From positions 1 to 43,944 of the IMG/VR virus record IMGVR_UViG_3300032240_001906: 43,944 nucleotides of DNA; one strand, given 5' to 3'. The DNA comes from a virus. A program made the translations under genes and the position numbers. The notes under the pieces are model-generated. The model had not been told where the DNA came from and did not search any database. It saw nothing but the letters and a program-made list of their open reading frames with translations. Shown one piece after another: positions 219-29,130 of the stretch (position 1 is its first letter; each line of letters opens with the position of its first letter).

Positions 219-2678
219 TTATTTTGCCAAACTTTCTAATTTCTTCATAATGCTTTCCATACTTGGATCGCGCATCATATTCTTGTTAAAGTCTTGTCCG
301 CTGTTGCCGCGATCGCCTATGCCTTCAACTTTGGTTTTGATATTACCAACTAATTCTTTTAATCTTGCTAGACCGTCAGTTGGTTCAACTGCGTGAGTTT
401 GACCGTGACGGTTTTGCCATTCCATTGTAAGTTTTTCCATAAACTTTTCAGCTAGTTCTCTTGCCTGTTGTCCTGCCTTGTCTCCAAATTTTTCGCTGAT
501 CGTTTTTTCTACATCGATGGCTATGCCTTCCTCTCCTCTAAATGGACCAACATTTGGATTATCTCTATTATAAAAACTCTTAACAATTTTAGCAACTTCT
601 TGAACCATGGATCCTTTATCCTCTTCCATTGTGCCAGGAGGAGGATCCATGTCTGTATTTTCATCAGCACTATTTTGTTCCATGTGTTGTAGCTCGCTCA
701 TGGTGTCACTTAGAAAGTCTTCGTCGTAGCTGATTAAATGTCTAGCCTGCTTCGGACTCATATTCAATTTTTTTACAAGAACCATGCCGATTGCTTTAAC
801 TAGTTCGCCTTCGTTTGATGAATCGTATGTGATACCTTTGTCTGCTAATATTTTAGCAACTTGGTAACTTGTGCGATCTTCAGGAGACTCGGCAACTGGT
901 GCTTCAGGGGCAGGTTCAACAGGTGCTGGCTCTGCTGGTGCTGGCTCTTCGGCGGGCGCTTCTGTATCGCTGATTCCTAGTGCTACTGCTAGTTCAGGGT
1001 AATTCTCTTTTGACCATGCTTTGAAAACTTCAATTGGCTCGGCACGTAATTCTTCAGAGCGACCGGCTTCTTGTTGGAAAGCATTTTCTAGTTCTTCACT
1101 GTTAATTCCGTATTCATTAAAAAAGTTATACGCTGTGTCTAATTGAAGTCCACCTTCTGGTAATGCTTCAATAGCTGCCTTTAATTCTTTGATTTGTTCT
1201 GGCGATAGTTTGCCTTGCTCAACTGCTTCTGCCCAGTTTTCAAATGCGGCAAACGCACTTTCTTTAACTTCATCGTCGCACACGCATTTGGCTACTGGAC
1301 GATCACATGCATCACAATATTCGTCTTTATTTTCGCCAACATAGTCCTCTAAATCAACTGTGTCAGCTTCGCTCATAATGCTGTGAATTAGCGGAAAGAA
1401 TTTGGCAATTTCTTCTTTGAAATTAGTTTGAGTAAATGCCTGCTTGTATTGTTCCATAGTAACATCGTCAAGTTCCATCATAGGATCGTCGATGCCTTCG
1501 CCTGAAAATTCTGCCATCCATGATTCATAGTGACCACGTTTGCCAAGAGCATTAATATGATTTTTAAGGTGGTGTAATTTTGCCATTGCTCTTTCTGTGA
1601 TACCACTAGCATCGGCATGTAAAGAAGGACTACGAACTTGTCTACTAAATTCTTGTAATTGAGCAATTTGTTCGCTCATTCTAATAATTGCTTTGCCTGC
1701 TGGATCATGCGGAATGCCACCATGATCTACGTGTTGTGCCATGGCAAAAGCACCAGCTGGATGAATAAATGGATACTTAAAACGCTCGCCATCTTTGTTT
1801 TGAATAAAGATTGCTTTGATCTTTTTAGGATGACTTCTAGCACCAGGGTACATTTCGTCCATAGATTCGTGATGTCTAACAATAACTTCTGTAGATCCGC
1901 GAACAGCACGGCTTGTTTTTTTGGTACTCTTATTGTTCCAACGGCCTTCTTGTAGACCTTGATGTGTTCTATCTTTCAACATTGATAGTAGTTTTTCAGC
2001 AACTTCTTCAGGATGATCTTCATATGCTCTACCTAAATCATATTGAAGTTCGTCAAATTCTTTTTGGATATAACGACCAACAGGATGAGTGATATTAGGC
2101 GAATCCACTATTTTCAAAATAGTGTCACTATTGAATTCTGGGCTGTTTACTACTTTTCCAACTTTTTGCATCAATGCGTCGTTGTCAACACTAGGACTCA
2201 TTCTTGATATCATTTGATCACGTGGAGTATTTGTCAGTTCGCGACCATTGTTTTCTGATACACGTTTTTTAATTTCGTTCATACTAGGTTTTTCCTTTGG
2301 GCCTTGCGTTGCGGCCATTTGTTGAAAATCATTTTTGTCTAGGTTTGATTTGGCAATATCTCTAGTGTCAAATCTTAATAATCTACGCATGGCAAAAAGA
2401 CGCATTTCTTTTAAGAAATTATACCATGACTTTTTAGCAAGGTCGTCTTGATTTTCTGTGATTCCTTGGCTGTAGTAAATTTTTAAACTTCCAAGATCGC
2501 CCAGGCTAATACTAACACGGCCTAAGTTTACACCTTCTTGAACAAAGTCAAAATCAAAGAAACGTGCAGCGGCAGGATCAATTGTAACGGACCCGTCGTC
2601 ATCGCCCATTTCTAAATTTTGAAATCGGCTTCTTATTTTGTCAAAGACATCCTGACTGATTATTTCGATAGCATTCAT
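219..2678 (-). CDS. Unrecognised large protein (819 aa), probably virion-associated
   Basis: I recognise the N-terminus (MNAIEIISQDVFDKIRSRF) as a family seen in T4-like phages of aquatic bacteria, but I know no function for it. Visible parts, in order: a conserved-looking N-terminal domain of roughly 120 residues; a charged central region rich in Lys, Asp and Glu; a Cys cluster CDACDRPVAKCVC resembling a zinc knuckle; an Ala-Glu-Pro linker made of repeated PAPAEP/PAPVEP units (genome 874-967); and a helical, acidic C-terminal third ending PSMESIMKKLESLAK. That last motif recurs inside the 330-aa protein at 4337-5329. The gene follows gp17 by 11 bases and has a late box 5 bases before its ATG with no Shine-Dalgarno sequence. 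Position in the packaging cluster suggests a head or virion role, which is inference. Confidence 0.75.
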   Translation of the reverse strand: MNAIEIISQDVFDKIRSRFQNLEMGDDDGSVTIDPAAARFFDFDFVQEGVNLGRVSISLGDLGSLKIYYSQGITENQDDLAKKSWYNFLKEMRLFAMRRLLRFDTRDIAKSNLDKNDFQQMAATQGPKEKPSMNEIKKRVSENNGRELTNTPRDQMISRMSPSVDNDALMQKVGKVVNSPEFNSDTILKIVDSPNITHPVGRYIQKEFDELQYDLGRAYEDHPEEVAEKLLSMLKDRTHQGLQEGRWNNKSTKKTSRAVRGSTEVIVRHHESMDEMYPGARSHPKKIKAIFIQNKDGERFKYPFIHPAGAFAMAQHVDHGGIPHDPAGKAIIRMSEQIAQLQEFSRQVRSPSLHADASGITERAMAKLHHLKNHINALGKRGHYESWMAEFSGEGIDDPMMELDDVTMEQYKQAFTQTNFKEEIAKFFPLIHSIMSEADTVDLEDYVGENKDEYCDACDRPVAKCVCDDEVKESAFAAFENWAEAVEQGKLSPEQIKELKAAIEALPEGGLQLDTAYNFFNEYGINSEELENAFQQEAGRSEELRAEPIEVFKAWSKENYPELAVALGISDTEAPAEEPAPAEPAPVEPAPEAPVAESPEDRTSYQVAKILADKGITYDSSNEGELVKAIGMVLVKKLNMSPKQARHLISYDEDFLSDTMSELQHMEQNSADENTDMDPPPGTMEEDKGSMVQEVAKIVKSFYNRDNPNVGPFRGEEGIAIDVEKTISEKFGDKAGQQARELAEKFMEKLTMEWQNRHGQTHAVEPTDGLARLKELVGNIKTKVEGIGDRGNSGQDFNKNMMRDPSMESIMKKLESLAK

Positions 2679-2683
2679 ATTGT

Positions 2684-2691
2684 TATTTATT
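2684..2691 (-). promoter_or_regulatory. Late promoter box AATAAATA, 5 bases before the 819-aa gene
   Basis: On the minus strand AATAAATA is followed by ACAAT and then the ATG at 2678. The box overlaps the gp17 stop codon. There is no purine-rich ribosome site. With T4-like spacing, transcription would begin at or next to the A of the ATG. Confidence 0.6.
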
Positions 2692-4276
2692 AATAATTGC
2701 TCACATAAATTGGCATTGGCATTACAAGGTCTTCGTAGGTATCTTCACGCATTTTATCGTAAATTGCAGGATCCCAATCCTGTAATGTCATAATCATACG
2801 TAACGCTAATAATAAACCGCTAACCAAATCGTCGTGCTGTCCTACTTTAGCTTCAAAACTCATGCCTTTAGCTACAAATGTTTTTAATTCGCTGATTAGA
2901 CTTTTGCTGGATAATTTAAGACGCTTGGTTTCAATTAACTGTTTGAGTTTAGAACAAGCACTAATTTTGCTGTTATGTGTTGTATTAAATCCTTTACGGA
3001 ATCTACGTACATGACCTCTTTTAACGGGTTCGCTTAAGAATAGACCAGGTATAGTTTCTTCGCCGAGTTCAGCAATAGAGACTAGTGCCGCTTCACCGAT
3101 GTTGTTGTTTTCTACGCTATAATATAAAGTTGGTTGAGATCCTTTTGAAGCACATTCATCTGTAATGTACTTACAAATATCTCGCAACATTCTTGCTTGC
3201 CCTTGTACTGGAGTTAGATTATGATGCCATTCTGCTACCTGTATAAAACTAGGCAATTCAAGTACTTGAATGGCGCTAGGATCCCCTCCTGTACCTAAGC
3301 TAGGATCTAGTGCTACAATATAGGTACACTTAGTATCAATCTTTTTATACCAACGTACTTGTCCCATTCTTAAAATAGGTTCTGTTCCGTGTATATCACT
3401 TAGTATAATACTGCTGATTAATGTTTCGTCAAATACCAAGAATTCACATTCGTGTTCTCGTCGGAATCGTTCTTCACCAATACGACTACGTTCTGTATTT
3501 GCCCATGCTTCGTCGCGTTCAGGATGCTCACTCCAATGTGCTTTGAAAGGAAAGAATCCGTTAGCACCTACATCAGTTGTAGTATCTTCTTCGTCAAATT
3601 TTCTGTTAGCTTCTTTCCATATCTGAGCAAACTGATCTTCATCACTGTTAGGAGTTGACGTGATAATTGCCTTACCACCTGTTGCTAGTGTAGGTGAAAT
3701 AGAAGTCCAGAACTCGCTGGCAATGTTTGGCGGAACGAACGCAAACTCGTCGGCGTATAGCAATGATAGTGACATACCACGACCGGTATTTTCTGTGGTT
3801 GTCTGTGCTACTATACGACTACCGTTGTCAAATTCAATACTTTGTTTGTTATAACTTGTTACACCGCATCTTATTATATCAGGACACAATTCGTAGGCAT
3901 AACGTATACGACTCATAATTTCTTGAGCACCTGTATATTTGTGAGCGGCAATTAGAATTGTACTATCTGGTACAAACATTGCGTACCATAACAAATATCC
4001 TGCGGCTGTTGTAGTCTTACCTGTTTGTCGAGGCAATAAATTTACATTAAAACGATGTTGGTGATAACTTTCAATCAATCTACGTTGATAGTCAAACGGT
4101 TCATATTTTAACTTACCCTTAACAGGGTGTTGTATATAAAAAAAGTTTTCTAAAAAATAATGTGGACCATTGATAGGATCCTGACATTTAAGTAAATGCT
4201 CAATGTCGTCTTCTGTAAAGCGTTGCTGACTGTGAGCTGTCTTTACTAGTTTACCGTCTAAGTTTTTTGATCCCAT
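2690..4276 (-). CDS. gp17: Terminase large subunit gp17 (packaging ATPase and nuclease)
   Basis: gp17 is the motor that pumps DNA into the prohead through the portal and cuts the concatemer. This copy is 528 residues against 610 in T4. The ATPase domain has Walker A PRQTGKTT at residues 82-89, Walker B LLYADE at 172-177 with catalytic E177, and a coupling motif TSTP around 207-209. The nuclease domain shows ALDPSLGTGGD with D324, SVENNN with E389, and GQHDD with D482/D483, which match the acidic metal-binding triad of the RNase H-like fold. The start MGSKNLDGKLVKTAH fits relatives. A terminator and a late box with 5-base spacing lie just upstream, so it appears to be transcribed separately from gp16 rather than in the tight gp16-gp17 pair of T4. 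The 819-aa gene follows 11 bases later. Confidence 0.97.
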   Translation of the reverse strand: MGSKNLDGKLVKTAHSQQRFTEDDIEHLLKCQDPINGPHYFLENFFYIQHPVKGKLKYEPFDYQRRLIESYHQHRFNVNLLPRQTGKTTTAAGYLLWYAMFVPDSTILIAAHKYTGAQEIMSRIRYAYELCPDIIRCGVTSYNKQSIEFDNGSRIVAQTTTENTGRGMSLSLLYADEFAFVPPNIASEFWTSISPTLATGGKAIITSTPNSDEDQFAQIWKEANRKFDEEDTTTDVGANGFFPFKAHWSEHPERDEAWANTERSRIGEERFRREHECEFLVFDETLISSIILSDIHGTEPILRMGQVRWYKKIDTKCTYIVALDPSLGTGGDPSAIQVLELPSFIQVAEWHHNLTPVQGQARMLRDICKYITDECASKGSQPTLYYSVENNNIGEAALVSIAELGEETIPGLFLSEPVKRGHVRRFRKGFNTTHNSKISACSKLKQLIETKRLKLSSKSLISELKTFVAKGMSFEAKVGQHDDLVSGLLLALRMIMTLQDWDPAIYDKMREDTYEDLVMPMPIYVSNY

Positions 4277-4281
4277 AACTC

Positions 4282-4289
4282 TATTTAAT
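4282..4289 (-). promoter_or_regulatory. Late promoter box ATTAAATA, 5 bases before gp17
   Basis: On the minus strand ATTAAATA is followed by GAGTT and the ATG at 4276. It lies directly downstream of the terminator at 4295-4318. There is no convincing Shine-Dalgarno sequence, so a leaderless gp17 mRNA is predicted. Confidence 0.55.
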
Positions 4290-4294
4290 GAAAA

Positions 4295-4318
4295 AAATAG
4301 CCTCCGAAGAGGCTATTT
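4295..4318 (-). terminator. Rho-independent terminator with UUCG loop before gp17
   Basis: A perfect 10-bp stem (AAATAGCCTC at 4295-4304 with GAGGCTATTT at 4309-4318) closes a 4-base loop. On the minus strand the loop reads TTCG between C and G, the very stable cUUCGg tetraloop, and the stem runs into seven T residues. It should end transcription from the 330-aa gene. Confidence 0.85.
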
Positions 4319-4336
4319 GGATTATATCCTAAGGTA

Positions 4337-5329
4337 TTATTTTAGACCAGATAATTTTAAAAGATCCGCCATGCTTTCGTTAGCACTTTCTGATTTTAAT
4401 CTACCATCAGATTCTGCTGATTTTAACATTGCCGCACGATCAGCATAGCTTCCGCGCTTGACATCTTTGGCAGCATCTTTTTCACCTTTGGTAGGATTCT
4501 TAACGTGCTTTAATGCGTCAAACTTTTCATTTGCGCCTTCTTTGGTGTTTCGTACAGCATCGGCAGAATCACCGGAAGCTGCCTTACGTTTATAAGCAGG
4601 AATATTAACTGGGTCCTTTGGATCTAGATCTTTAAGACGATCTTCAATTCCTTCTTCCATATCATCTTCTTCAACTTCTTCAGATTCGCCAATGAATTGT
4701 TTGTACTCTGACATTAATTTTTCTGCGATACTTTCCATTGTAGGATTTTCCTTTTTAGGATTTCCTCTTGGCATGTTGCCATCCATTCTATCTTCGGCAC
4801 CTGGAGTATTTTGTACTTTGGCAAATTCGTTAGGATCAAACTCGTTGGTGTCAGTTGGATCAGCAGGACTATTGTCATACTCGGCTTCGTCAGTTTCTTC
4901 AGGTTCTTCTATATTGACTTCTTCGCCATCGTCGCCAAATTCATCAGCATCAGGATTTAATTTGTCAATGACACTACGCATCTCGTCACCGGCAGTTGGG
5001 GCAGGTCCATCATGGGACATTGAAGGCTCTGCTGTTAGAGTAGCAGGATCATGTTCAATACCAAGATGTTCTGGCTCAACTTTATGTACACCAGCTAGTG
5101 TCATAATTTGTGTTAGCATATTAGCAACTTCATCGCCAGTTGCAGCTGTTGCGTTGATGCTAAAGCTAGCGGCTACAGGAGGATGATCTGAACCTGACAT
5201 CATACCCATTCCTGGCATTGGCATCATTCCGCATTCTGCTACGGTGCTTTCTTTAACCATTGTTTTTTCAACATTTGGATTTTGGGCATCAAGCTCGGCT
5301 AGACGCTTTAGTACATTAATCATTTGCAT
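4337..5329 (-). CDS. Acidic unrecognised protein (330 aa), possible prohead core or internal protein
   Basis: No enzymatic domain is recognisable. The N-terminus is MQMINVLKRLAELDAQNP, followed by a Met/Gly/Pro-rich stretch (residues 31-48), a short ordered-looking segment (50-90), a strongly acidic region (about 130-230), the motif PTMESIAEKLMS at 196-207, a second possible cleavage motif FIGES at 212-216, a lysine-rich part, and the tail SMADLLKLSGLK. The sequence LAE near the N-terminus fits the L/I-x-E site cut by T4 prohead protease gp21. If translation starts at the second ATG (5323), LAE falls at residues 8-10, the register of the T4 capsid-targeting peptide. The first ATG has the better ribosome site (AAGGAA, 6 bases away, overlapping the stop of the preceding gene). 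It sits between the 199-aa gene and the gp17 terminator. A core or internal head role is inference. Confidence 0.7.
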   Translation of the reverse strand: MQMINVLKRLAELDAQNPNVEKTMVKESTVAECGMMPMPGMGMMSGSDHPPVAASFSINATAATGDEVANMLTQIMTLAGVHKVEPEHLGIEHDPATLTAEPSMSHDGPAPTAGDEMRSVIDKLNPDADEFGDDGEEVNIEEPEETDEAEYDNSPADPTDTNEFDPNEFAKVQNTPGAEDRMDGNMPRGNPKKENPTMESIAEKLMSEYKQFIGESEEVEEDDMEEGIEDRLKDLDPKDPVNIPAYKRKAASGDSADAVRNTKEGANEKFDALKHVKNPTKGEKDAAKDVKRGSYADRAAMLKSAESDGRLKSESANESMADLLKLSGLK

Positions 5330-5331
5330 AG

Positions 5332-5931
5332 TTATTTCCTTGGGTCTGGAGCAGGAGTTAACATGCTCTTTGTATTTGCTGGGGTATCAATATTATATCT
5401 AGCGGCAGTTTCCATAGGAATTTCTTCGCCGCGGGCCTTACGTTCTAATTTTAATAGATCGTTTAACTCTTTGACAAATCCTGTATTGTATTTGTCACCG
5501 TAGTAATCTTCAAATTGAGGGTTACCTGCTTCTTTGTAATCTGGGTCATCTAACAAAGCACCTTCTCTTGGTGTTGTTTCGATGTGCTGATATTCTTCTG
5601 TCGGTTCGCCTGGACGACGAACTACTAAATTTTGTTTGCTAACTCCTAGCTCTCTAGTTAAGTATTCAGTTAGCTCTTGTTGTGTAGTAGGATAATCTAA
5701 TGAAAATTCATAGATGCTTACTTCACAATTTTTAACTTGAGGAAAATCTAAAGGTAAAGCCTGAATAGGTGTTTTAGATTTTTTAACAGAAGTTAAAGTT
5801 TCACCTTCTGTATATCGACCCAACAATGTTTTCATTGTGTCTTCTTGTTCAGTGGTGAATTCTCCAGCAACTTTGACCTTAAAGTCATATCGCTTGATTG
5901 ATTCGGATAGGTATTCTTTGAAGTTTTTCAT
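5332..5931 (-). CDS. Putative capsid-targeted internal head protein (199 aa)
   Basis: The N-terminus MKNFKEYLSES matches the capsid-targeting peptide of T4 internal proteins (MKTYQEFI[A/T]EA) in length and pattern: Met-Lys, an aromatic at 4, Glu at 6, an aromatic at 7, and L8-S9-E10, which fits the L/I-x-E rule of prohead protease gp21. Cleavage after E10 would leave 189 residues. The next part (residues 12-80) alternates in a strand-like pattern, followed by a charged, partly disordered C-terminal half. I do not recognise a wider family. The gene lies between gp16 and gp17, starts 6 bases after the gp16 stop, and has a late box 7 bases before its ATG with no Shine-Dalgarno sequence. Packaging inside the head is inferred from the N-terminus; gp21 is not in this window. 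Confidence 0.75.
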   Translation of the reverse strand: MKNFKEYLSESIKRYDFKVKVAGEFTTEQEDTMKTLLGRYTEGETLTSVKKSKTPIQALPLDFPQVKNCEVSIYEFSLDYPTTQQELTEYLTRELGVSKQNLVVRRPGEPTEEYQHIETTPREGALLDDPDYKEAGNPQFEDYYGDKYNTGFVKELNDLLKLERKARGEEIPMETAARYNIDTPANTKSMLTPAPDPRK

Positions 5932-5937
5932 AGTGTA

Positions 5938-6411
5938 TTATTTATTAAGATTCTTTAGTTTTTCTAGGATACTATTCCTGTCTGTTAGGATATAACCCTC
6001 ACCGTTTACAGTATCACCACCTTCGCCATGCTTTTTATCAATGGCCAACTTTTTAAGTTGTAGATCAACCATTTTTAGTTTTTTATCAATTTTGTTACTT
6101 TTAGCGGTAATGGCTGCATTTAACATCTGTCCAGCAACTTCGAACATCCTTGTACTATAGCGAGCTTCTACATTCATACCTAAGTCCATGAGATCATCGT
6201 AGGCTTGTTCTGCTTTTGCTGCCAGGGCATCTAGTTCTCCATCAGCCATATCTCCGAGCCCTTTTACTTTGGGCAGGGCGGCAGAAATTTTATCAAATTC
6301 TTCTAGCTTATCTTGTAGATCTATGGTGGTTGGTATTTGAGCAGGAGCAGGCTCAATTAGAGGTTCCTCACTAGTGGGCAAATTTAATAATTCTTCAAGT
6401 TTCTTTGTCAT
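5938..6411 (-). CDS. gp16: Terminase small subunit gp16
   Basis: gp16 forms a ring that recognises the packaging substrate and regulates gp17. The protein is 157 residues against 164 in T4. The central segment resembles T4 gp16: AEQAYDDLMDLGMNVE, then a helix with AGQMLNAAITAKSNKIDKK and a third helix KLKMVDLQLKKLAIDKKHG; together these would form the oligomerisation core. The first 50 residues are Pro/Glu-rich with PAPAQIP and probably flexible. The gene lies 11 bases downstream of gp4. In T4, gp16 is directly followed by gp17; here two other genes separate them. No strong ribosome site is visible before the ATG, so translation may be coupled to gp4. Confidence 0.85.
   Translation of the reverse strand: MTKKLEELLNLPTSEEPLIEPAPAQIPTTIDLQDKLEEFDKISAALPKVKGLGDMADGELDALAAKAEQAYDDLMDLGMNVEARYSTRMFEVAGQMLNAAITAKSNKIDKKLKMVDLQLKKLAIDKKHGEGGDTVNGEGYILTDRNSILEKLKNLNK
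5939..5946 (-). promoter_or_regulatory. Late promoter box AATAAATA, 7 bases before the 199-aa gene
   Basis: On the minus strand AATAAATA is followed by ATACACT and the ATG at 5931. The box overlaps the end of gp16. No ribosome site is visible between box and start codon. Confidence 0.5.
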
Positions 6412-6422
6412 AATCTTACTTA

Positions 6423-6863
6423 TTATTTTGAGCGCCCATTATGGAAAATATCGCGTTCGTTTATCACACGAAATCTTATGTTTTGATTCCTACACCATAG
6501 TCCTGCAGCTTCCCACTTGGCCATGTTTTTAACATACTGGGCTTGATTGTAGGGATTTTTACCAACTTTTTCTTTAATCATTTGATTAGCTGGTTTAATT
6601 TCTACCATCTCTGTGTGATTTTTCATATTCTTGTCAAGATAGACAATTAAAAAATCAGGTACGTAAACAGTACCTTTTCCAGTTAACGGATCTCTATAAG
6701 GAATTCTTACAGGCTCGCTGGCCCATTGTTGTACACTAGGATTATTATCGCAGAATTGCATAAATGTCAATTCCCAAGAACTTCTATATATAGGAGGTTT
6801 GTTACCTACATACTTTTCTGGGTTTCGAACTTTGTATACGTCTTTGGCAAACTTTAAACTCAT
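6423..6863 (-). CDS. gp4: Head completion protein gp4 (TnsA-like nuclease fold)
   Basis: In T4, gp4 (also called gp50/65) acts on the filled head before the neck is attached. This copy is 146 residues, close to the 150 of T4. The recognisable core is YRSSWELTFMQFCDNNPSV, then WASEPVRIPY, VPDFLIVY and MVEIKP. These give E31, D70 and E88-x-K90, the acidic residue pattern of TnsA/PD-(D/E)xK endonuclease folds, suggesting trimming of DNA at the packaged end. The ATG at 6863 overlaps the stop of the upstream 122-aa gene (ATGA), so the two are translationally coupled. gp16 follows after 11 bases. Confidence 0.9.
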   Translation of the reverse strand: MSLKFAKDVYKVRNPEKYVGNKPPIYRSSWELTFMQFCDNNPSVQQWASEPVRIPYRDPLTGKGTVYVPDFLIVYLDKNMKNHTEMVEIKPANQMIKEKVGKNPYNQAQYVKNMAKWEAAGLWCRNQNIRFRVINERDIFHNGRSK

Positions 6864-7228
6864 GCCACAATATTTCTAGTGATCTCTGCAGCCGGAGTGA
6901 ATTGGTTAGCATAGCCAAGAAAACTTGTCTTTAGTCTATTGTAATTTAAAATTTCTCCAACTAACGCACTAATTTCAACAGAATCTAAACCTTTTAGAGT
7001 ATCTAAAATTATCATAGGATTATATCCATCAAGTTTAGCCTGTTTCATTATTACCACTGCTGTTGACTCAGCTGAAGCTTGTTGAAATCCTCTATTTTCA
7101 AAGAATCCAACCATGGCATTAAATGTATTTGCGTCAAGTTCAAACGGCTTTGAGTAGTAAGCATCAAGAGCTTGAATTGTAGAATTCTTAGCAGTAGGTT
7201 GAGGAAGGTTACTATAAGTAGTTGTCAT
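6860..7228 (-). CDS. Small structural protein of T4-like aquatic phages (122 aa), function unknown
   Basis: The sequence is compact and mostly helical, with FELDANTFNAMVGFFENRGF in the first half and MKQAKLDGYNPMIILDTLKGL followed by SALVGEILNYNRLKTSFLGY in the second. I recall similar small proteins beside head and tail genes in T4-like phages of aquatic bacteria, where they are usually called structural, but I know no demonstrated function. No membrane segment or signal peptide is present. It starts one base after the stop of the 393-aa tail-tube-fold gene and overlaps gp4 by four bases, so it is part of a tightly coupled three-gene unit. A baseplate or head-completion role is possible. Confidence 0.8.
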   Translation of the reverse strand: MTTTYSNLPQPTAKNSTIQALDAYYSKPFELDANTFNAMVGFFENRGFQQASAESTAVVIMKQAKLDGYNPMIILDTLKGLDSVEISALVGEILNYNRLKTSFLGYANQFTPAAEITRNIVA

Positions 7229-7229
7229 A

Positions 7230-8411
7230 TTATGGGCCGCCTGTTAATTTTGAAGGAGTTGTAGGAGTAGAATTATTAATTGAAGAATTATTTCCAGAGA
7301 ATAAATTAATTCCTAATTTTCCTGATGAGTTAATTCCTGCTTGACTTAACCCGACTCTTACTGCCTCTCCTACACCGCCTGGTTGGTTTCCTGTTGCTTG
7401 TACGTTTCCTAAAACTCCAGCAATAACACTGTAGCCTTCGTTTTTTAGACTATTTTTGTTTATTTGTCCAATATTTTTTCTTAAATTATTACCTTGTATC
7501 GCAATATTTAAATAATCAAGAGGACTTTTATTTTCTTTACCAAGCAGTCCAAATATAGAATCGGCTCCAGCAATTACACCACCTGGGCCTAGTAGTTTAT
7601 TACGACCGTTTCCACCTATGCTTAGTGGGCTTGGCGTTGTATCATAATAAACAGAAGCAAATCCTGCTGGTTCTTTACCCCTTTCAATTTTACCTTGATT
7701 ATACAAAACTGTTTCGTAGGCAATTGTCATTTTATTAGACAATACTCTGCTACCTTCGTTTTGATCAACGTTATCGTGAGACCAATCTGAAATTTTTGGA
7801 TTTACCAAAGTATACTGACTAAATCTTTGTTGGTGTAATACGTAAATGTCAATAGATTGAAAAAATGGGGCAGTTGCGTTTTCTGTTGAAGACCTAAAAG
7901 ATGCCAATGAATTATTATAACCGTATTTGTAATCGTTGGTGCCGTATTTTGTATCTGAATACTGAGGAGGAACACCTGCTGGTAACTTAGTTACTGCGTT
8001 GTCTCCATATGTACTATCGGCATAATAGTACTTGAAGTAATTTGTCCACAGATCTCTAGAAATGTTGCTGTTATCATCATGGAATTCCATGGTAACGTTA
8101 CTATATTTTATTCCTGTTTGTACAACAGTTCTTCTGTTATATTGATTAAGTGTTTCAGTGGTAAGTGTAAATTTTGGAAGGTCGGTCTTTTTTACTAAAA
8201 ATCCAACATCCCTAGATTTCCAGCTAGGATCTCTAATTGCTTCTTGGTTTATATTAAAAACAACATAATATAAAAAAGCAACTTTTGGATTACGAGCGTA
8301 GGTATTTCTAACGTAGAGTCTATCAGCATGTTGGTAATCGCGAGGCTGTGCCTGTTCACCAAATATACCTTTTCCTACGCCACTTAAAAAATTTGTAAAA
8401 GCATTTCCCAT
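7230..8411 (-). CDS. Tail-tube-fold protein, probably gp54-like baseplate-tube junction
   Basis: The first half has the layout of T4 tube-related proteins: FLYYVVFNIN as an opening strand, DLPKFTLTTETLNQYNRRT matching the T4 gp54 stretch beginning MPENRLSYET, then YSNVTMEFHDDNSNISRD and WTNYFKYYYADSTYG, as in the gp19/gp48/gp54 fold. The C-terminal third is Gly/Asn/Ser-rich and low in complexity, as in gp54. At 393 residues it is longer than T4 gp54 (320). In T4, gp48 and gp54 start the tube on the baseplate. The gene comes just after gp19 but behind a terminator, with its own late box 5 bases before the ATG and no ribosome site. A second tube-like protein of another role cannot be excluded. 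Confidence 0.6.
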   Translation of the reverse strand: MGNAFTNFLSGVGKGIFGEQAQPRDYQHADRLYVRNTYARNPKVAFLYYVVFNINQEAIRDPSWKSRDVGFLVKKTDLPKFTLTTETLNQYNRRTVVQTGIKYSNVTMEFHDDNSNISRDLWTNYFKYYYADSTYGDNAVTKLPAGVPPQYSDTKYGTNDYKYGYNNSLASFRSSTENATAPFFQSIDIYVLHQQRFSQYTLVNPKISDWSHDNVDQNEGSRVLSNKMTIAYETVLYNQGKIERGKEPAGFASVYYDTTPSPLSIGGNGRNKLLGPGGVIAGADSIFGLLGKENKSPLDYLNIAIQGNNLRKNIGQINKNSLKNEGYSVIAGVLGNVQATGNQPGGVGEAVRVGLSQAGINSSGKLGINLFSGNNSSINNSTPTTPSKLTGGP

Positions 8412-8416
8412 ATGAA

Positions 8417-8424
8417 TATTTATG
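8417..8424 (-). promoter_or_regulatory. Late promoter box CATAAATA, 5 bases before the 393-aa gene
   Basis: On the minus strand CATAAATA is followed by TTCAT and the ATG at 8411. It sits 6-8 bases beyond the terminator stem at 8431-8458. There is no Shine-Dalgarno sequence. Confidence 0.65.
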
Positions 8425-8430
8425 CCAATA

Positions 8431-8458
8431 AAAAAGCCCAGTATAATCTGGGCTTTTT
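8431..8458 (-). terminator. Rho-independent terminator after gp19
   Basis: A perfect 11-bp stem (AAAAAGCCCAG with CTGGGCTTTTT) encloses a 6-base loop at 8442-8447. The minus strand continues into six T residues. It lies 18 bases after the gp19 stop and could work in both directions. Confidence 0.9.
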
Positions 8459-8476
8459 GTATTGATAAGTTATCTA

Positions 8477-9109
8477 TTAACCTGTAGCGCCACCTAATGT
8501 ACGTACAGCGTTGCCTAGTCTTGTACCAATTCCACCAGCAGTTAGCGAATCGCCGTCTTCTGTGGTTTGTAGTGCGTTATCGTAGGCAATTGATAAAGAA
8601 ATATCAACTGGATCGTTACTTGTGTAGTCAGTATTTGAATAAGTTGCCTGCTTGATGTAGCAGCCTGATAGTTTAAATGTTTCTAGTACTTGATAATCAA
8701 TTGCTCCATTACCACCATCTAGAATTTGTATTAATGTATCAAACTTATAATCAACTCCGCTAGCGGCAGATGCTTGCTCGTAGAAATCAAATTGTTTCTG
8801 AAGTTGTAGACCAACTAGTTTCTGAACTTGTCCAGATACATCATCACGAACAGTTAATTTAATATCAGCCCAAGAATGTCTTCCTGCTAATTTAATTGTA
8901 CTGTTGTAAGCAGATAATTTAATTTCTTCAAAAGTAACATCAGGACGAGTAACGTTCATTACCTGTTTAGTTAATTCTGTAACTTCGGCGCCGTCAGCAA
9001 ATTTCGTTAGAAGAACTCTAAAACGATATTTTAACTTTGGCATCAGTAGACCTTGGTTTACACCTTGGGCTACTGGTACTCCGAAACTTTTTAAACTTGA
9101 AATTGCCAT
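8477..9109 (-). CDS. gp19: Tail tube protein gp19
   Basis: gp19 stacks as hexameric rings to form the inner tube through which DNA passes. The N-terminal segment MPKLKYRFRVLLTKF, then VTRPDVTFEEIKLSAYNST, RHSWADIKLTVRDD, and later FKLSGCYIKQATYSNTDYTS with PVDISLSIAYDNA, follow the known order of strands in T4-like tube proteins. The length is 210 residues against 163 in T4; the extra residues are mainly an N-terminal arm and a Gly-rich tail. The gene follows gp18 with an AAGGAG ribosome site and its own late box at 9133-9140, and is closed by the terminator at 8431-8458. Confidence 0.95.
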   Translation of the reverse strand: MAISSLKSFGVPVAQGVNQGLLMPKLKYRFRVLLTKFADGAEVTELTKQVMNVTRPDVTFEEIKLSAYNSTIKLAGRHSWADIKLTVRDDVSGQVQKLVGLQLQKQFDFYEQASAASGVDYKFDTLIQILDGGNGAIDYQVLETFKLSGCYIKQATYSNTDYTSNDPVDISLSIAYDNALQTTEDGDSLTAGGIGTRLGNAVRTLGGATG

Positions 9110-9132
9110 GTTTGGCTCCTTATTCTTTTTAA

Positions 9133-9140
9133 TATTTACC
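9133..9140 (-). promoter_or_regulatory. Late promoter box GGTAAATA upstream of gp19
   Basis: On the minus strand GGTAAATA is 23 bases before the gp19 ATG, with an AAGGAG ribosome site between them. This is the long-leader arrangement; it would allow gp19, needed in many copies, to be made independently of gp18. Confidence 0.5.
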
Positions 9141-9142
9141 TA

Positions 9143-12100
9143 TTATAGCCCGGCAGCAATTGCCCCAGTTTTCTTAATTCTCAATGGAATGTAGATAAAC
9201 TCAACTGCTTTAACAGGCTCAATAGCAACATCTAACCATAACTCAGATCTATCAACTCTAGCAGGAGTGTTGTTAGAAGTGTCGCATACAGTAATGAAGT
9301 CATATAGAGCACGTTGACCTACTAATTCTAGTAATAGGCTATCAGCGGCAGCTTTAATTTCTCTGCGTGTCTGAGCATCGTTAGGTTCAAACAAATACGG
9401 CTTGGCTAAAATAGACAATTGTCTACGTAGATAAGCAACTAATCTTGCTACGTTAATTCTATCTAAAGAACTAGCTAATGCTTGACGTGTATATTGTCCA
9501 AAGTTAACAAGTCCTGCTCCAGGTAATGTAGCAATTGGGTTAATCTTAACACCCGCAAGCACATCGCGTAGACCTTGATGTAATGATGTTGTGTGGAATT
9601 CACCAGTCATACCGTCAATGTATCCAACACTTGTAGCATTGTCAACACCACCTCTACGTAAACCAGCAGGAGCAAACCATGGATAGCTCTTATTATCGCT
9701 GTTAATGATTGTACGTAACATCATGTGACTTGGAGGAACAACAATGTTGTTACCTGTGTTGTCAGTTGTATAACCACTTGGATAGAACATAGCCATGTAG
9801 CTATCGTAGCTAACAGCGCCTGTGTCACCGTTGTCATAGGCCAACGCTGTGTTATTGCCCCATGCTGTTAGTGCTGTGCCATTTGGCTCTAAGCGGAATG
9901 GTGTATCACCAACTACAAAAGCTGTTTGTCCACGATCTGTGTTGAAAGCAATCATATTCTGAATTGCTTCTGGATATCCAGGAGTAGCAATTAAGTTGAA
10001 TACCAATGTATCTGTGTCGCGGATTGCGGCATTTGTATCTAGTGTAGCCTTAAGAGCTGCAACAACTTGACCACGTTGAGCAAAACGACCAAATCTTCCA
10101 CTACCGTCTTCGTTGATTCCGTGCTGTGTTACCCATCTATCAGTGTAATATGGGTCCTGTCCGTTCATAACGTCGTCGCCGTTGATGGTATATCTTGGGT
10201 TAACACCATCGTTGGCATTGATATTAATATAACCTTTAACATATTTCTTAACGTTGAAACCACTACGTCTTGTGTTCCATAGTTTCATACCACGTGGGTA
10301 TAAAGCTGGATCAGGACAATCTGGATCAACATAATCATATGTTAATAATTTAGTAATTGGATCAGGATCAACGTCCTGTCCAGCACCAGACCAACGAGCA
10401 TCAGCAAATAACCAACCATTTGGTGTTACTTGATCTGTAGTATCTTGTTCTACCCACATACTATCGGCAGCATTATAAACATAAATCATATGTCCATATT
10501 CTTCTATAGATGCTGTACTAATCCAGATATCACCAGTTACTAAAGATCCACCATCGCTTTGAGTAGTTGGCTCTAATGCGGCAACGATTGGACCGTTGAT
10601 ATCTGTACTTGGATAGAATGTTCTATAACCAACCCAGTTCCTTCCGTTGTTAATTAAAACGTCTACTTCGTCGACTACGTTGCTATACCATAATTGTCCA
10701 TCAGCTGGAGTTGTAGTAGGAGCAGTAGCCTTAGCTTCAAATGTTAGAGGTCTCCAGTTAGATACTAGATATGTAAATCCATCAGCTGTTGGAGCTGTAT
10801 AAAGATTTGGAGTACCTGCTTTTGTTACAGGATTATAGGCAGCTAAACCAGGATAAATTGGGCTAGACTGACTAATGGCACTAGCAAGAGGTGCGTGTGT
10901 ACCATCTAGTAATTCAAAATCACCGCCTAGGGCATGTTTGAATGTTAATGTTCCTGCTGAAGCATTATATACCGCAGTTACATTAACTAAGCCGGCAGCA
11001 CTTAATGCGGCTGGAATATTGGCAGCTACAGGTACAGAACCAGATCCTGCAACAGTAACAGTAATTGATGAACTCCATCCTGCTGTATTTGCTCTTGTTT
11101 CTCTAATAGAGAATGTGCTAGCGGCAGCTTGTACAGCTGATGTGGCAGCAAACGTTACAGAAGTTGGTCCTGAAGAATTTCTTCTCCATAGCTTAAAGTT
11201 AGCAATGGTATTGTTACCTGTTAGGTTATTAATATTGCTATCAATAAACACAGTACCTACAGAAATATTTGCTCCACCACCTGCAGCATCCAGTGTATTA
11301 ATAGCGGCTGGAGTGCTAGTGTAAATTGGAGCGGCTACGGTATTCCATGTCATTGTAGCACCGTTGTAATACTTGACCAACCAATTTGCTCCAAAACCAG
11401 GAGATGTTGTCTTGACCCAAACACTGCCTGCTGTTGTTCCAGTGTCATATGTTGGATACTGATAGTGCGGGCTAACTGTTAGTTGTTTTCCGCCGTTAAA
11501 TCCTTGCTGTACTCTAACCCATGCGTTAGATCCAGCAGTGGTTTTATACCATAGTGTGATTTCATTTTCGCTGGTAATATAGATAGCGTAGTCGCCTTGT
11601 TGACCAAAACTGTCATTAGGTACCTTGCTAGAGGCAGCGGTTGTATAATTTGTGTTATCAATAATTAAAGGTCGTTTAGATACAAAAGATCCTGCGCCAC
11701 TTGGGTTCCATTCACTGACTCCGTATAATGAAGAGTCACTATCTACCCAATATGTTCCTGCTACCGGTTCACCAGCTGGAGCATCAGCTTGTGGAGATAA
11801 CATGCCAGTGTCGATATCAGCACGAACAATGTAAGCCTTTGAGCTAACACCTAACATACTGTAGGCAGCTTGTAAGCCGTACTCGTTCAACTCTCCGCCG
11901 TGCATTGGGTTGCCGCCAGCGTCTGTATAGAACAAAGGTGTTCCAAAAGTATCTGTTAAGTCGCGTTGACTTGTAATTACATAAACCTTGCCTGCGTTGG
12001 CAGCAAGTGTTCCTGTTGCGGTGCCAGTACCTGATGCGTTTTCTTTGTCTTGTGCTGTAGTAACAACAATTAAAGGCACAGTTCCTGGTGCCGCTGGTGT

Positions 12101-12157
12101 ATAAAAACTTTCATCGATTACTGAAACCGAAATTCCTGGTGAGCTAAGTGTAGCCAT
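9143..12157 (-). CDS. gp18: Tail sheath protein gp18, enlarged by inserted modules
   Basis: gp18 forms the contractile sheath. The N-terminus MATLSSPGISVSVIDES and the C-terminal third (about residues 670-1004, including FITVCDTSNNTPARVD and a closing FIYIPLRIKKTG) match T4-like sheath proteins. The protein is 1004 residues against 659 in T4. The extra length lies at about 131-570, where a G-D-x-W ... Y-x-G-x-x-W pattern occurs about six times (near 134, 188, 244, 301, 487 and 542), for example GSVWVKTTSPG and GDIWISTAS. Similar modules occur in gp14, gp15 and the fibres. In T4 the inserted domains of gp18 face outward, so these modules probably decorate the sheath surface. It has a good AAGGAG site and a late box 29 bases upstream; transcription diverges from the HNH-like gene. 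Confidence 0.95.
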   Translation of the reverse strand: MATLSSPGISVSVIDESFYTPAAPGTVPLIVVTTAQDKENASGTGTATGTLAANAGKVYVITSQRDLTDTFGTPLFYTDAGGNPMHGGELNEYGLQAAYSMLGVSSKAYIVRADIDTGMLSPQADAPAGEPVAGTYWVDSDSSLYGVSEWNPSGAGSFVSKRPLIIDNTNYTTAASSKVPNDSFGQQGDYAIYITSENEITLWYKTTAGSNAWVRVQQGFNGGKQLTVSPHYQYPTYDTGTTAGSVWVKTTSPGFGANWLVKYYNGATMTWNTVAAPIYTSTPAAINTLDAAGGGANISVGTVFIDSNINNLTGNNTIANFKLWRRNSSGPTSVTFAATSAVQAAASTFSIRETRANTAGWSSSITVTVAGSGSVPVAANIPAALSAAGLVNVTAVYNASAGTLTFKHALGGDFELLDGTHAPLASAISQSSPIYPGLAAYNPVTKAGTPNLYTAPTADGFTYLVSNWRPLTFEAKATAPTTTPADGQLWYSNVVDEVDVLINNGRNWVGYRTFYPSTDINGPIVAALEPTTQSDGGSLVTGDIWISTASIEEYGHMIYVYNAADSMWVEQDTTDQVTPNGWLFADARWSGAGQDVDPDPITKLLTYDYVDPDCPDPALYPRGMKLWNTRRSGFNVKKYVKGYININANDGVNPRYTINGDDVMNGQDPYYTDRWVTQHGINEDGSGRFGRFAQRGQVVAALKATLDTNAAIRDTDTLVFNLIATPGYPEAIQNMIAFNTDRGQTAFVVGDTPFRLEPNGTALTAWGNNTALAYDNGDTGAVSYDSYMAMFYPSGYTTDNTGNNIVVPPSHMMLRTIINSDNKSYPWFAPAGLRRGGVDNATSVGYIDGMTGEFHTTSLHQGLRDVLAGVKINPIATLPGAGLVNFGQYTRQALASSLDRINVARLVAYLRRQLSILAKPYLFEPNDAQTRREIKAAADSLLLELVGQRALYDFITVCDTSNNTPARVDRSELWLDVAIEPVKAVEFIYIPLRIKKTGAIAAGL
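10448..11767 (-). repeat. Repeated GDxW...YxGxxW modules inside gp18
   Basis: These bases encode gp18 residues 131-570. Six diverged copies are seen, with starts near residues 134 (GTYWVDSDSS), 188 (GDYAIYITSEN), 244 (GSVWVKTTSPG), 301 (GTVFIDSNIN), 487 (GQLWYSNVVDE) and 542 (GDIWISTAS). Each is followed after 15-25 residues by an aromatic-rich strand such as YYNGATMTW or NNGRNWVGY. Between copies 4 and 5 there is an Ala/Thr/Ser-rich, Ig-like-looking stretch. Confidence 0.6.
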
Positions 12158-12186
12158 TCTTTATCTCCTTGATGGATTACTTGTTT

Positions 12187-12194
12187 TATTTAGC
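12187..12194 (-). promoter_or_regulatory. Late promoter box GCTAAATA upstream of gp18
   Basis: On the minus strand GCTAAATA lies 29 bases before the gp18 ATG with an AAGGAG ribosome site between. It is 22 bases from the oppositely directed box at 12217-12224. Confidence 0.6.
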
Positions 12195-12216
12195 GCCAAC
12201 CACAGAAAAAATGCCA

Positions 12217-12224
12217 GTTAAATA
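12217..12224 (+). promoter_or_regulatory. Late promoter box GTTAAATA upstream of the HNH-like gene
   Basis: GTTAAATA lies 27 bases before the ATG at 12252, with the purine-rich AAAAGGGGAA between. It is divergent from the gp18 box. Confidence 0.45.
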
Positions 12225-12251
12225 CTAGACAAAAGGGGAACAAAAGGGCGT

Positions 12252-12587
12252 ATGAGAAAACTTTGTAAAACTTGCCAGCAACGGCCAACAGCCATTAATT
12301 ATTACAAGGAAGGAAAACCTTATTTTAGGTCTCAGTGCGACCATTGTGCTAGTGGCAGAAAAGAAGGAAGGCCCTTGTGGGCCCTCTCTGGATATAAAAA
12401 GAAATTATCTTGCGACAGATGTAACTACAATTCAAAATACCAAGAACAATTTAATGTATTTTATGTTGACGGTAACCCTAGTAATTGTAGATTTACTAAT
12501 TTAAAAACAGTATGTGCCAATTGCCAGCGCATATTACACAAACTTAATCTGCCGTGGAAACAAGGCGATCTTCGACCAGATTTTTAA
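12252..12587 (+). CDS. Cys-rich HNH-like protein (111 aa)
   Basis: Four CxxC pairs (C5/C8, C29/C32, C54/C57 and C88/C91) predict two zinc sites. The segment YVDGNPSNCRFTNLKTVCANC resembles the D-G-N ... N-L ... C-x-x-C core of HNH nucleases, but the first catalytic His is not in its usual place, just before the D-G-N. I recall small proteins of this type (ending PW..GDL.PD) in T4-like aquatic phages. It may be a small HNH or endonuclease VII-like nuclease, or a non-catalytic zinc-binding derivative. It is one of four plus-strand genes in the window, lies between gp18 and gp1, and its last 44 bases overlap the 3' end of gp1 on the other strand. Confidence 0.75.
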   Translation: MRKLCKTCQQRPTAINYYKEGKPYFRSQCDHCASGRKEGRPLWALSGYKKKLSCDRCNYNSKYQEQFNVFYVDGNPSNCRFTNLKTVCANCQRILHKLNLPWKQGDLRPDF

Positions 12588-13200
12588 TTGAACTAAACAA
12601 CTCATCAATAGTGGTGTCGTTGTTAATTACATAGTCAATATTGCCGCCTACCCAACTAGTTTCGCTGGCGTGAATCTTTAGTTGTTCTAATTTGTTCTTG
12701 CTTAATGACCAAGAGGCGTTGCCATCGGGTCCTCGATTAACACTGGCAGCGGCTTCAAACCATGCTGGATCTTCCCCTCGTTTAACACGAATAACTAATC
12801 CGCCAGCATTGTGTATAGCTTTGATTTCATTGGGAAAACGCACATCACTAATAACAATGTTGTCAGCGGTTTTACGCATTTTATTTTCTACACTGGCAAT
12901 CCATATGTCGTCGTGGAACCCGTGCCTACAGACTTCAGTGCCCCAGTATTGTAGCACCCATCGTGGAGTAAGATTAGGCATATTAAGACGTTCAGCCCAC
13001 CAGGTATCTACTTGTTCGCGCCACTCTCGGGCTTCTTTAGTTCTGCCTTCTAGTAATGTTCTATCCCACCCAAACACATTGGCCACTGCGTCTTTAAGTG
13101 TATTAGCAAAACTGTCTCTTCTAAATCCGTGAAAATTTACCAAATAATCAGCGGCAGTATCTTTACCAGCCCCGATTAGTCCTACAAACCCAATAATCAT
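12544..13200 (-). CDS. gp1: Deoxynucleoside monophosphate kinase gp1
   Basis: This enzyme phosphorylates dNMPs to dNDPs for phage DNA synthesis; in T4 it also accepts 5-hydroxymethyl-dCMP. The P-loop is at the N-terminus, GLIGAGKDT (residues 7-15). RRDSFANTLKDAVANVFGWD and later SDVRFPNEIKAI follow the order of dNMP kinase families. It is 218 residues against 241 in T4. The ATG at 13200 has a strong GGAGGTG ribosome site. A sigma70-like promoter (TTGACA, 17-base spacer, TAAATT) lies just upstream, unlike the late boxes of its neighbours, which fits early expression of a nucleotide-metabolism gene. Its 3' end overlaps the convergent HNH-like gene. Confidence 0.93.
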   Translation of the reverse strand: MIIGFVGLIGAGKDTAADYLVNFHGFRRDSFANTLKDAVANVFGWDRTLLEGRTKEAREWREQVDTWWAERLNMPNLTPRWVLQYWGTEVCRHGFHDDIWIASVENKMRKTADNIVISDVRFPNEIKAIHNAGGLVIRVKRGEDPAWFEAAASVNRGPDGNASWSLSKNKLEQLKIHASETSWVGGNIDYVINNDTTIDELFSSIKNLVEDRLVSTAD

Positions 13201-13220
13201 AGCACCTCCAGCGATACTAT

Positions 13221-13249
13221 AATTTATTATATTTTTGTGACAATGTCAA
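13221..13249 (-). promoter_or_regulatory. Sigma70-like promoter upstream of gp1
   Basis: On the minus strand TTGACA (13249-13244) is followed by a 17-base spacer and TAAATT (13226-13221; 4 of 6 matches to TATAAT). An alternative TATAAT in the spacer is too close (12 bases). The start codon is 20 bases beyond with a GGAGGTG site. Early or middle expression is inferred. Confidence 0.55.
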
Positions 13250-13256
13250 GTATTTT

Positions 13257-14015
13257 TTAGCCAATTACCCAAGTTAACGGAGTACCGCCTTCTTTGTAGT
13301 TAATTAGGTCTTGTTCTAAGGCTTCTATTTCGGCCTTACCCTCACCTTTTAGTGCTGTACCGTTAAGGCTTGTTCCGCCTTGTGGACTGGCAATTTGATT
13401 AAATTTTTCTCGTGCTTCACCAAGCATAATCTTACATGTAGCAAGAGCATAGTCTCTTAACCACTGTCCGGCAAATGTATCATTTAGTAGATTAAAATCA
13501 GGACGATGGTTATCTATCCATAATAATACTTCTTCGCTGCCTCTAGGACGTTGATCTATAGTTAACAATTTGGTAGTTTTGTTGAATATAAAATTAATTT
13601 CGCTACCGAACATTTTACCAACCATCTTTTGATATGACGCAAAGGCATAGTAAGTAGCTAGGCCGCCCATGTTTGTTGATGTAAGCAAATAAGTGTTAGA
13701 ATAAGCAAGGTTAAAGGGCTCGAACAAACTGCCGCCATCACCGCCGCCTGTTCTGCTACCTACACTACGACGATAAATCCTACGAACGTTTTCAATTTCG
13801 CTAGGAAGTACATATTGATTTTGATCTACTTCAAGTGTTAAGAACGCAAAACTTTCTTCAACGCTGTTACTACTGCGCTGTCTAAAACGTCTAAATGCTC
13901 TATCAATTGCGGTACTGTAATGAATGGGGTCTAGTTCAACATCAACCATGCCGGCGCCCAACATGGTTTGAATGTATTCTACTACTCTTTGTCGTTCGTT
14001 GTCTGCTTCAGTCAT
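13257..14015 (-). CDS. gp13: Neck protein gp13 (head-to-tail connector)
   Basis: gp13 and gp14 build the neck that seals the packaged head and receives the tail. The sequence begins MTEADNERQRVVEYIQTMLGAGMVDVEL, followed by STAIDRAFRRFRQRSSNSVEES and FLTLEVDQNQYVLPSEIENVRRIYRR, a pattern known from T4-like gp13. The C-terminal helix region (FAGQWLRDYALATCKIMLGEAREKF) is also typical. It is 252 residues against 309 in T4. I chose the ATG at 14015: an upstream in-frame ATG at 14222 would run into gp14 on the other strand and adds no recognisable sequence. A late box lies exactly 5 bases before 14015 and there is no ribosome site. gp13 here diverges from gp14; in T4 the two are adjacent in one direction. 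Confidence 0.92.
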   Translation of the reverse strand: MTEADNERQRVVEYIQTMLGAGMVDVELDPIHYSTAIDRAFRRFRQRSSNSVEESFAFLTLEVDQNQYVLPSEIENVRRIYRRSVGSRTGGGDGGSLFEPFNLAYSNTYLLTSTNMGGLATYYAFASYQKMVGKMFGSEINFIFNKTTKLLTIDQRPRGSEEVLLWIDNHRPDFNLLNDTFAGQWLRDYALATCKIMLGEAREKFNQIASPQGGTSLNGTALKGEGKAEIEALEQDLINYKEGGTPLTWVIG

Positions 14016-14020
14016 AGTAA

Positions 14021-14028
14021 TATTTATC
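14021..14028 (-). promoter_or_regulatory. Late promoter box GATAAATA, 5 bases before gp13
   Basis: On the minus strand GATAAATATTACTATG runs straight into the gp13 start. No Shine-Dalgarno sequence fits. This box and the gp14 box share a 40-base divergent region. Confidence 0.65.
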
Positions 14029-14040
14029 AGTTTACGGTAC

Positions 14041-14048
14041 GCTAAATA
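14041..14048 (+). promoter_or_regulatory. Late promoter box GCTAAATA, 7 bases before gp14
   Basis: GCTAAATA is followed by TAAGACT and the ATG at 14056. No Shine-Dalgarno sequence is present between box and start. Confidence 0.6.
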
Positions 14049-14055
14049 TAAGACT

Positions 14056-28780: not shown

Positions 28781-29130
28781 TTATTTCTGGATTTCTGTTT
28801 CGAGTTTTTCAACATCACAGCGTTCGGCCCACACGGTATAGAAACAGTTAATGTCTTTACTGAACAGATTATCGTTGCCAATAATAACTTTATTATCAAC
28901 AATTTCTTTTACAAATAACTTTTGATGCTTGCCTACTGGAGTAATATCCACGGTAATGCTGTCAGGATCAACCAACTTAGTCCAGTAATCAGGTAACTCG
29001 ATAGTATCTTTGCCTGTTAATCTACCACGTACATAAACACCATTTTCTGGTCCTTCTAAACTGCCGTAACGCAATCTCATTCCAGGTCTAGTTGGGTGAT
29101 CAATTACAAAAGATTTAGTTGTTGCGGCAA
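28781..29130 (-). other. C-terminal domain of the 3074-aa fibre (SLEGPENGVYVRGRL type)
   Basis: About 115 residues: FVIDHPTRPGMRLRYGSLEG, then ELPDYWTKLVDPDSITVDIT and CFYTVWAERCDVEKLETE. I recall this ending from other long fibres of T4-like aquatic phages. It occupies the position where S74 usually sits. A folding or capping role is inferred only from position. Confidence 0.7.

Follow-up and report, generated by a model that had tools for sequence, protein, structure and literature searches.

We analyzed 43,944 bases of DNA from an uncultured virus (IMG/VR record IMGVR_UViG_3300032240_001906; we call this whole stretch the window). Seven of its genes, including those for the terminase large subunit and for neck proteins, have a box like that of the phage T4 late promoters just 5 or 7 nucleotides (nt) before the start codon. 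The best explanation for these close boxes is that the late mRNAs of these genes are probably leaderless, with predicted leaders of 0-3 nt. An earlier note on this DNA had already predicted leaderless late mRNAs. That prediction is now well supported, if not proven, by the conserved spacing, the bimodal distances between box and start codon, the exclusion of Shine-Dalgarno (SD) sites from close-box genes, the pyrimidine at -1, the lack of room for a leader, and a gp55-type sigma factor in relatives.

Judging from its terminase and from its tail sheath, tube, neck, and sheath-stabiliser families, the virus is a distant T4-like jumbo phage. (Terminase identity is 56.8% with the Pseudomonas jumbo phage PA5oct and 48% with the Sinorhizobium phage Phosso.) As the earlier note stated, TAAATA lies exactly 5 nt before the ATG of the 819-amino-acid (aa) gene, gp17, the 393-aa gene, and gp13, and 7 nt before the ATG of the 199-aa gene and gp14. 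None of these six genes has an SD site in the 18 nt upstream of its start. (A GGAGG upstream of gp17 is part of a terminator stem, about 30 nt away.) A seventh close-box gene, which encodes a 157-aa protein, was absent from the earlier note. It has the variant TAAGTA at 5 nt, and this variant recurs in its orthologues. Eight other genes in the window have far boxes, 20-29 nt before the ATG, and most of these genes also have an SD site. The earlier note had described such genes (boxes 21-29 nt upstream, usually with an SD site). The features are listed below; two far boxes are included for comparison.

219..2678, minus strand: 819-aa gene after gp17, ATG at 2678; no PHROG match; predicted leaderless
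2684..2689, minus strand: TAAATA box of the 819-aa gene, 5 nt before the ATG
2690..4276, minus strand: gp17, terminase large subunit, ATG at 4276; PHROG 36964, E=1e-122; predicted leaderless
4282..4287, minus strand: TAAATA box of gp17, 5 nt before the ATG
4295..4318, minus strand: intrinsic terminator with a 10-bp stem, a TTCG loop, and a T tract; its end is 7 bp from the gp17 box, on the upstream side; -15.4 kcal/mol
5332..5931, minus strand: 199-aa virion structural protein gene, ATG at 5931; PHROG 14802, E=3e-5
5939..5944, minus strand: TAAATA box of the 199-aa gene, 7 nt before the ATG
5938..6411, minus strand: 157-aa gene, ATG at 6411; weak match to the terminase small subunit (PHROG 16202, E=8e-14; PHROG 445, E=3e-4)
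6417..6422, minus strand: variant TAAGTA box of the 157-aa gene, 5 nt before the ATG
7230..8411, minus strand: 393-aa tail-tube-like gene, ATG at 8411; PHROG 4542, E=6e-10; predicted leaderless
8417..8422, minus strand: TAAATA box of the 393-aa gene, 5 nt before the ATG
8430..8458, minus strand: intrinsic terminator (11-bp stem, T6) directly upstream of the box of the 393-aa gene; segment -19.7 kcal/mol
9133..9138, minus strand: comparator box of the tail tube gene (8477-9109), 23 nt before the ATG, with an SD site
12187..12192, minus strand: comparator box of the tail sheath gene (9143-12157), 29 nt before the ATG, with an SD site
13257..14015, minus strand: gp13 neck / head-tail adaptor gene, ATG at 14015; PHROG 211, E=2e-32; predicted leaderless
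14021..14026, minus strand: TAAATA box of gp13, 5 nt before the ATG, back to back with the gp14 box
14043..14048, plus strand: TAAATA box of gp14, 7 nt before the ATG
14056..15252, plus strand: gp14-like neck gene, ATG at 14056; PHROG 11591 (virion structural protein), E=6e-77; predicted leader of 0-3 nt

Could these boxes be chance matches in A+T-rich DNA? None of 20,000 dinucleotide shuffles of 24 upstream regions gave at least four genes at one spacing, or six genes at 4-8 nt. Across the whole window, TAAATA is depleted about two-fold (30 found versus 64.2 +/- 8.5 expected), as if it were avoided outside promoters. An unbiased hexamer scan covered 865 distinct regions upstream of genes in relatives. 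Its top position-enriched hexamer, above the SD hexamers, was TAAATA at 5 nt, with a count of 144 versus a mean of 5.0 at other positions. Because the shuffles never matched the data and TAAATA at 5 nt tops the scan, the box counts, the spacings, and the lack of SD sites are far beyond chance, which we rule out as an explanation.

The close spacing is conserved in related phages. We gathered about 240 related environmental contigs by searching with the terminase, gp14, and the 393-aa protein. We set the starts of orthologues by homology, not by the box; we defined a close box as TAARTA at 4-8 nt; and we counted distinct orthologues. For gp17, 136 of 169 orthologues have a close box, which is at exactly 5 nt in 121 of the 136. 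The corresponding counts are 43 of 44 and 40 of 43 for the 393-aa gene, and 55 of 71 and 55 of 55 for gp13. Nearly all orthologues of gp14 (54/56) have a box at 4-8 nt, mostly at 7, and a close box with a spacing of 4-7 nt is found for 103 of the 111 orthologues of the 819-aa gene. For the 157-aa gene, TAARTA is at 4-8 nt in 48 of 66 orthologues (39 at 5 nt). The 199-aa gene is mixed: 32 of 70 orthologues have a close box, and the rest mostly have a far box with an SD site. We found no close box in any of the 47 tail tube orthologues or the 69 tail sheath orthologues, all of which have an SD site (47/47 and 69/69).

The earlier note had taken the constant 5-base spacing as a sign of selection, and had made its idea depend on finding the same spacing in related phages. 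The spacing is indeed kept in the relatives while the sequence of the spacer varies: the 5-nt spacers comprise 85 different 5-mers, so it is their length that is conserved. Similarly, upstream of gp17, the gap between the T tract and the box varies, and the distance from box to ATG is 5 nt in 63 of 65 cases.

Close and far boxes form two separate classes, at 4-8 nt without an SD site and at 15-34 nt with one. Across all open reading frames (ORFs) in 80 relatives, the box is 4-7 nt before the ATG in 226 cases, 8-16 nt in 12 cases, and 17-40 nt in 127 cases; as each distance is measured from the first ATG that has a box, this profile leans slightly towards short distances, and the homology-based orthologue counts are free of this bias. 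(ATAAAT was not used as a control hexamer: it overlaps ATAAATA and so is not independent.) In these same relatives, SD sites are present in 9% of close-box genes versus about 80% of far-box genes, and the near-empty gap at 8-16 nt corresponds to distances at which an SD site would not fit. The same pattern is seen within families. Among orthologues of the 199-aa gene, 4 of 32 with a close box and 35 of 38 with a far box have an SD site (P=4e-12), and for gp13 the counts are 7 of 55 and 13 of 14 (P=2e-8); both P values overstate the independence of the orthologues because both traits are inherited along the tree. Judging from these comparisons, orthologues that shift the box to the far position gain an SD site, and those that shift it to the close position lose it.

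Where would transcription begin? The T4 late box spans -13 to -6 (PMC2988020), so five spacer bases would put +1 on the A of the ATG. In the 80 relatives, the base at -1 is C or T in 214 of 226 close-box genes (95%) versus 67 of 127 far-box genes, and it is C or T in 18 of 20 within one 322-kilobase (kb) relative (P=0.002). RNA polymerases favor a pyrimidine at -1 and a purine at +1, and the pyrimidine before the ATG matches the Y(-1)A(+1) initiation that is predicted at the A of the ATG. In the spacing-7 class, A is at -3 in 92% and is preceded by C or T in 81%. This suggests a transcription start on ACU-AUG. At spacings of 7-8 nt, transcription would probably start at the A of the conserved ACT and give a 3-nt leader.

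There also seems to be little place for anything longer. Terminator hairpins are found just upstream of the box in 61 of 136 orthologues of gp17 and 37 of 43 orthologues of the 393-aa gene. The genes gp13 and gp14 are divergent, and their ATGs are 40 bp apart in the window. In relatives with two close boxes, these ATGs are mostly 26-30 bp apart, and the two boxes, back to back, take up this space together with their spacers. The distance is mostly 36-46 bp in relatives whose gp13 has an SD leader. The adjoining terminators, and the divergence of gp13 and gp14 at 26-30 bp, thus leave no room for leaders. (Three contigs, L114, L121, and L143, have insertions of 730-783 bp between gp13 and gp14 that resemble homing-endonuclease-type ORFs. 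The inserted ORF of L143 appears to take the close-box start, TAAATATAAGACTATG.)

The boxes share several features with the T4 late promoters (TATAAATA, which depend on gp55, gp33, and gp45): the TAAATA core, A+T-rich sequence downstream, no -35 element, and a location before late structural genes. The core is conserved, with TAAGTA as a variant, and the two preceding positions are mixed. Apart from the T tracts of terminators, the 8 bases ahead of the box show no conservation, and the spacer is A+T-rich. We also considered host sigma-70 promoters and rejected them, as matches were at chance level (38 versus 34.7). A gp55-type late sigma factor (phrog_12791) is encoded in three large relatives, with E values of 1e-83 to 1e-85; it was not found in the window, which is a 44-kb fragment.

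We suggest that the boxes are T4-type late promoters that would be read by a gp55-like sigma factor on the host RNA polymerase, and that the 5-nt distance has been selected so that transcription would start at the A of the AUG. Ribosomes would then start on the 5'-terminal AUG, as they do on known leaderless mRNAs, probably by 70S-type initiation. Capsid, tube, sheath, and fibres would keep conventional leaders, mostly with an SD site. Because late genes with conventional leaders lie beside the predicted leaderless ones, two translation modes would serve one promoter class.

We considered other explanations for the close boxes. In the first, which is unlikely, the promoters are genuine, yet transcription begins imprecisely or a few bases sooner, so that most of the genes would have leaders several nucleotides long. 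The spacings of 6-8 nt in the families of the 819-aa gene, the 199-aa gene, and gp14 would fit this, as would the preference of gp14 and the 199-aa gene for ACT before the ATG, but gp13 and the 393-aa gene have the box almost invariably at 5 nt, and even a spacing of 7-8 nt predicts a leader of at most 3 nt. It is very unlikely that the box acts in the RNA, as an AU-rich element that binds the ribosome or S1, with transcripts starting further upstream. AU-rich upstream regions do help SD-less initiation in general, and the close-box genes lack SD sites. However, the identical box is also found 17-34 nt upstream of SD-led genes, and neither the rigid 5-nt spacing nor the pyrimidine at -1 would be expected of such an element. 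Also, transcripts arriving from further upstream would end at the terminators just before gp17 and the 393-aa gene, and where the ATGs of gp13 and gp14 are 26-30 bp apart, an upstream start would fall inside the opposite gene.

Even less probable is that the genes rely mainly on polycistronic RNA, with translation by coupling or reinitiation, and that the boxes are incidental, or are weak internal promoters. This would suit the 819-, 199-, and 157-aa genes, whose starts follow an upstream stop codon by 6-11 nt, but gp17 and the 393-aa gene follow terminators, the divergent gp13 and gp14 have no upstream partner, and both the spacing and the box are conserved. Finally, there is very little chance that the annotated ATGs are wrong, with the real starts downstream and the boxes at a normal distance from them. 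The N-termini of gp17 and of the 393-aa protein do differ by a few codons between orthologues. Nevertheless, in the six families that we tested, third codon positions vary the most from codon 2 onward (codons 2-6), which implies that coding begins at the annotated ATG; this variation ruled out misplaced start codons. The ATG is also fixed relative to the box: the in-frame codon 5 nt after the box is ATG 176 times, as compared to 13 times for the next commonest codon (TTG occurs twice, and GTG is outside the top list). The use of ATG alone does not single out leaderless genes, because the far-box genes with SD sites also use only ATG.

Some observations count against leaderless mRNAs, which we still prefer as the explanation. 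The literature that we searched has no transcript 5' end or protein measurement for these phages. A search of assembled bacterial genomes for the terminase, made to find a host, gave no match. Of the gp17 orthologues, 33 of 169 (about 20%) have a far box or no recognisable box. The first two bases of the T4 box (its 5' TA) are not conserved in these phages, which is a difference from T4. The gp45 family phrog_223 was matched nowhere, but the controls were silent too, so this result is uninformative. Also, the orthologue counts are not independent: by parsimony, there were about 5 changes of mode for the 199-aa gene and about 4 for gp13, and in a tree-controlled test of spacing against SD sites, the direction was mostly as expected and the changes were too few for significance. 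Lastly, translational coupling on read-through RNA could contribute at the 819-, 199-, and 157-aa genes.

Which proteins fall in which class? Close boxes are found before packaging, neck, small structural, and some enzyme genes. The earlier note had proposed that head and neck proteins are made from leaderless mRNAs and fibres from conventional ones. The part about fibres held up, as fibre genes have far boxes. The part about head and neck proteins is only partly right: the major capsid, tube, and sheath genes are SD-led, and the tail-tube-like and baseplate wedge genes have close boxes. Because the major capsid gene of the 322-kb relative has a strong SD site and no box, head versus fibre is not the dividing line. 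(The close-box baseplate wedge gene is from the same relative.) Tube, sheath, and capsid are the highest-copy proteins in a T4-type virion, and a division between low-copy and high-copy parts fits better. The spacing class may thereby affect protein amounts.

The 322-kb relative G001 (the contig of L033) also encodes a homologue of the ribosomal protein bS21 (37144-37296, minus strand; PF01165, above the cut-off), and bS21 content may affect which mRNAs ribosomes favor. In the same genome, the gene for a phage peptide deformylase (280693-281193, minus strand; L099:3493-3993) has a box at exactly 5 nt. It is conceivable, though doubtful, that T4-type phages beyond the model group have a late programme with two modes, in which the distance from box to ATG sets whether a gene is leaderless (low-copy machine parts) or SD-led (capsid, tube, and sheath), and in which phage-driven changes to the ribosome, such as the bS21 of this relative, might shift the balance late in infection.

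Some other genes in the window and their boxes are also of note. Two giant ORFs of 3,524 and 3,074 aa (18166-28740 and 28781-38005, minus strand) have boxes at 27 and 21 nt, respectively, and the 3,074-aa gene has no SD site. A 111-aa cysteine-rich protein (12252-12587, plus strand) matches no PHROG; in its orthologues, the box is either at 27-32 nt or, following an AAGG-rich stretch, at 4-5 nt.

We then compared the window and its relatives to known systems. In the head and tail region of T4 (70-120 kb), all late boxes are 9-46 nt before the gene and nearly all genes have an SD site, whereas phages of the window's type have a large class with the box exactly 5 nt before the ATG and without an SD site. 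Late promoters of the form NATAAATA are known from the cyanophages S-PM2, Syn9, and P-SSM2 (PMC2984593), and ATAAATA motifs from the jumbo phages CBB and GAP32 (PMC5259590). These phages have the same box before the same type of genes as phages of the window's type, but in stretches of P-SSM2, S-PM2, and CBB, the boxes are mostly at 15-40 nt and there is no conserved 5-nt class. In the stretches that we examined, T4 (100 kb), P-SSM2 (80 kb), S-PM2 (30 kb), CBB (48 kb), a PA5oct-like phage, and Phosso had no close-box class, with at most one chance-like case each. The late transcripts of phage phiKZ may have very short leaders. The jumbo phage AR9 has leaders of 26-491 nt (PMC5312081).

A cultured phage, the ocean Pelagibacter phage HTVC008M (Kyanoviridae), does have close boxes. 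Eight of its genes have the box at exactly 5 nt, and seven of these lack an SD site; a second class has the box at 18-31 nt, mostly with an SD site. The close-box genes for head closure and for a DNA end protector are a divergent pair, 26 bp apart, with overlapping promoters (L355:18900-18960; the other genes are in L355 and L188). HTVC008M differs from phages of the window's type in that it belongs to another phage family and has another set of close-box genes.

The predicted transcripts resemble known leaderless mRNAs, such as those of lambda cI and of mycobacterial genes, in their 5'-terminal AUG (predicted here), their lack of an SD site, and their AUG start codon (PMC4965119). For lambda cI and the mycobacterial genes, the 5' ends were measured, whereas for phages of the window's type, the leaderless state is predicted from promoter spacing. 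Also unlike those genes, the genes in these phages are lytic-late and share their promoter class with SD-led genes. Leaderless mRNAs and late promoters of the T4 type are each known, but their systematic combination in T4-type phages is apparently undescribed. The literature that we searched, which was open-access only, does not report leaderless late mRNAs for T4-type phages, so this is weak evidence of novelty.

HTVC008M, being cultured, offers a laboratory system for testing the leaderless prediction. If the prediction is true, then orthologues that have switched class form a natural set for studying leaderless initiation, and start codons could be called more accurately in such phages. More broadly, widespread environmental T4-like phages would make much of their packaging and neck machinery from leaderless mRNAs and other late proteins via SD sites, and the placement of a late promoter could choose the mode of translation.

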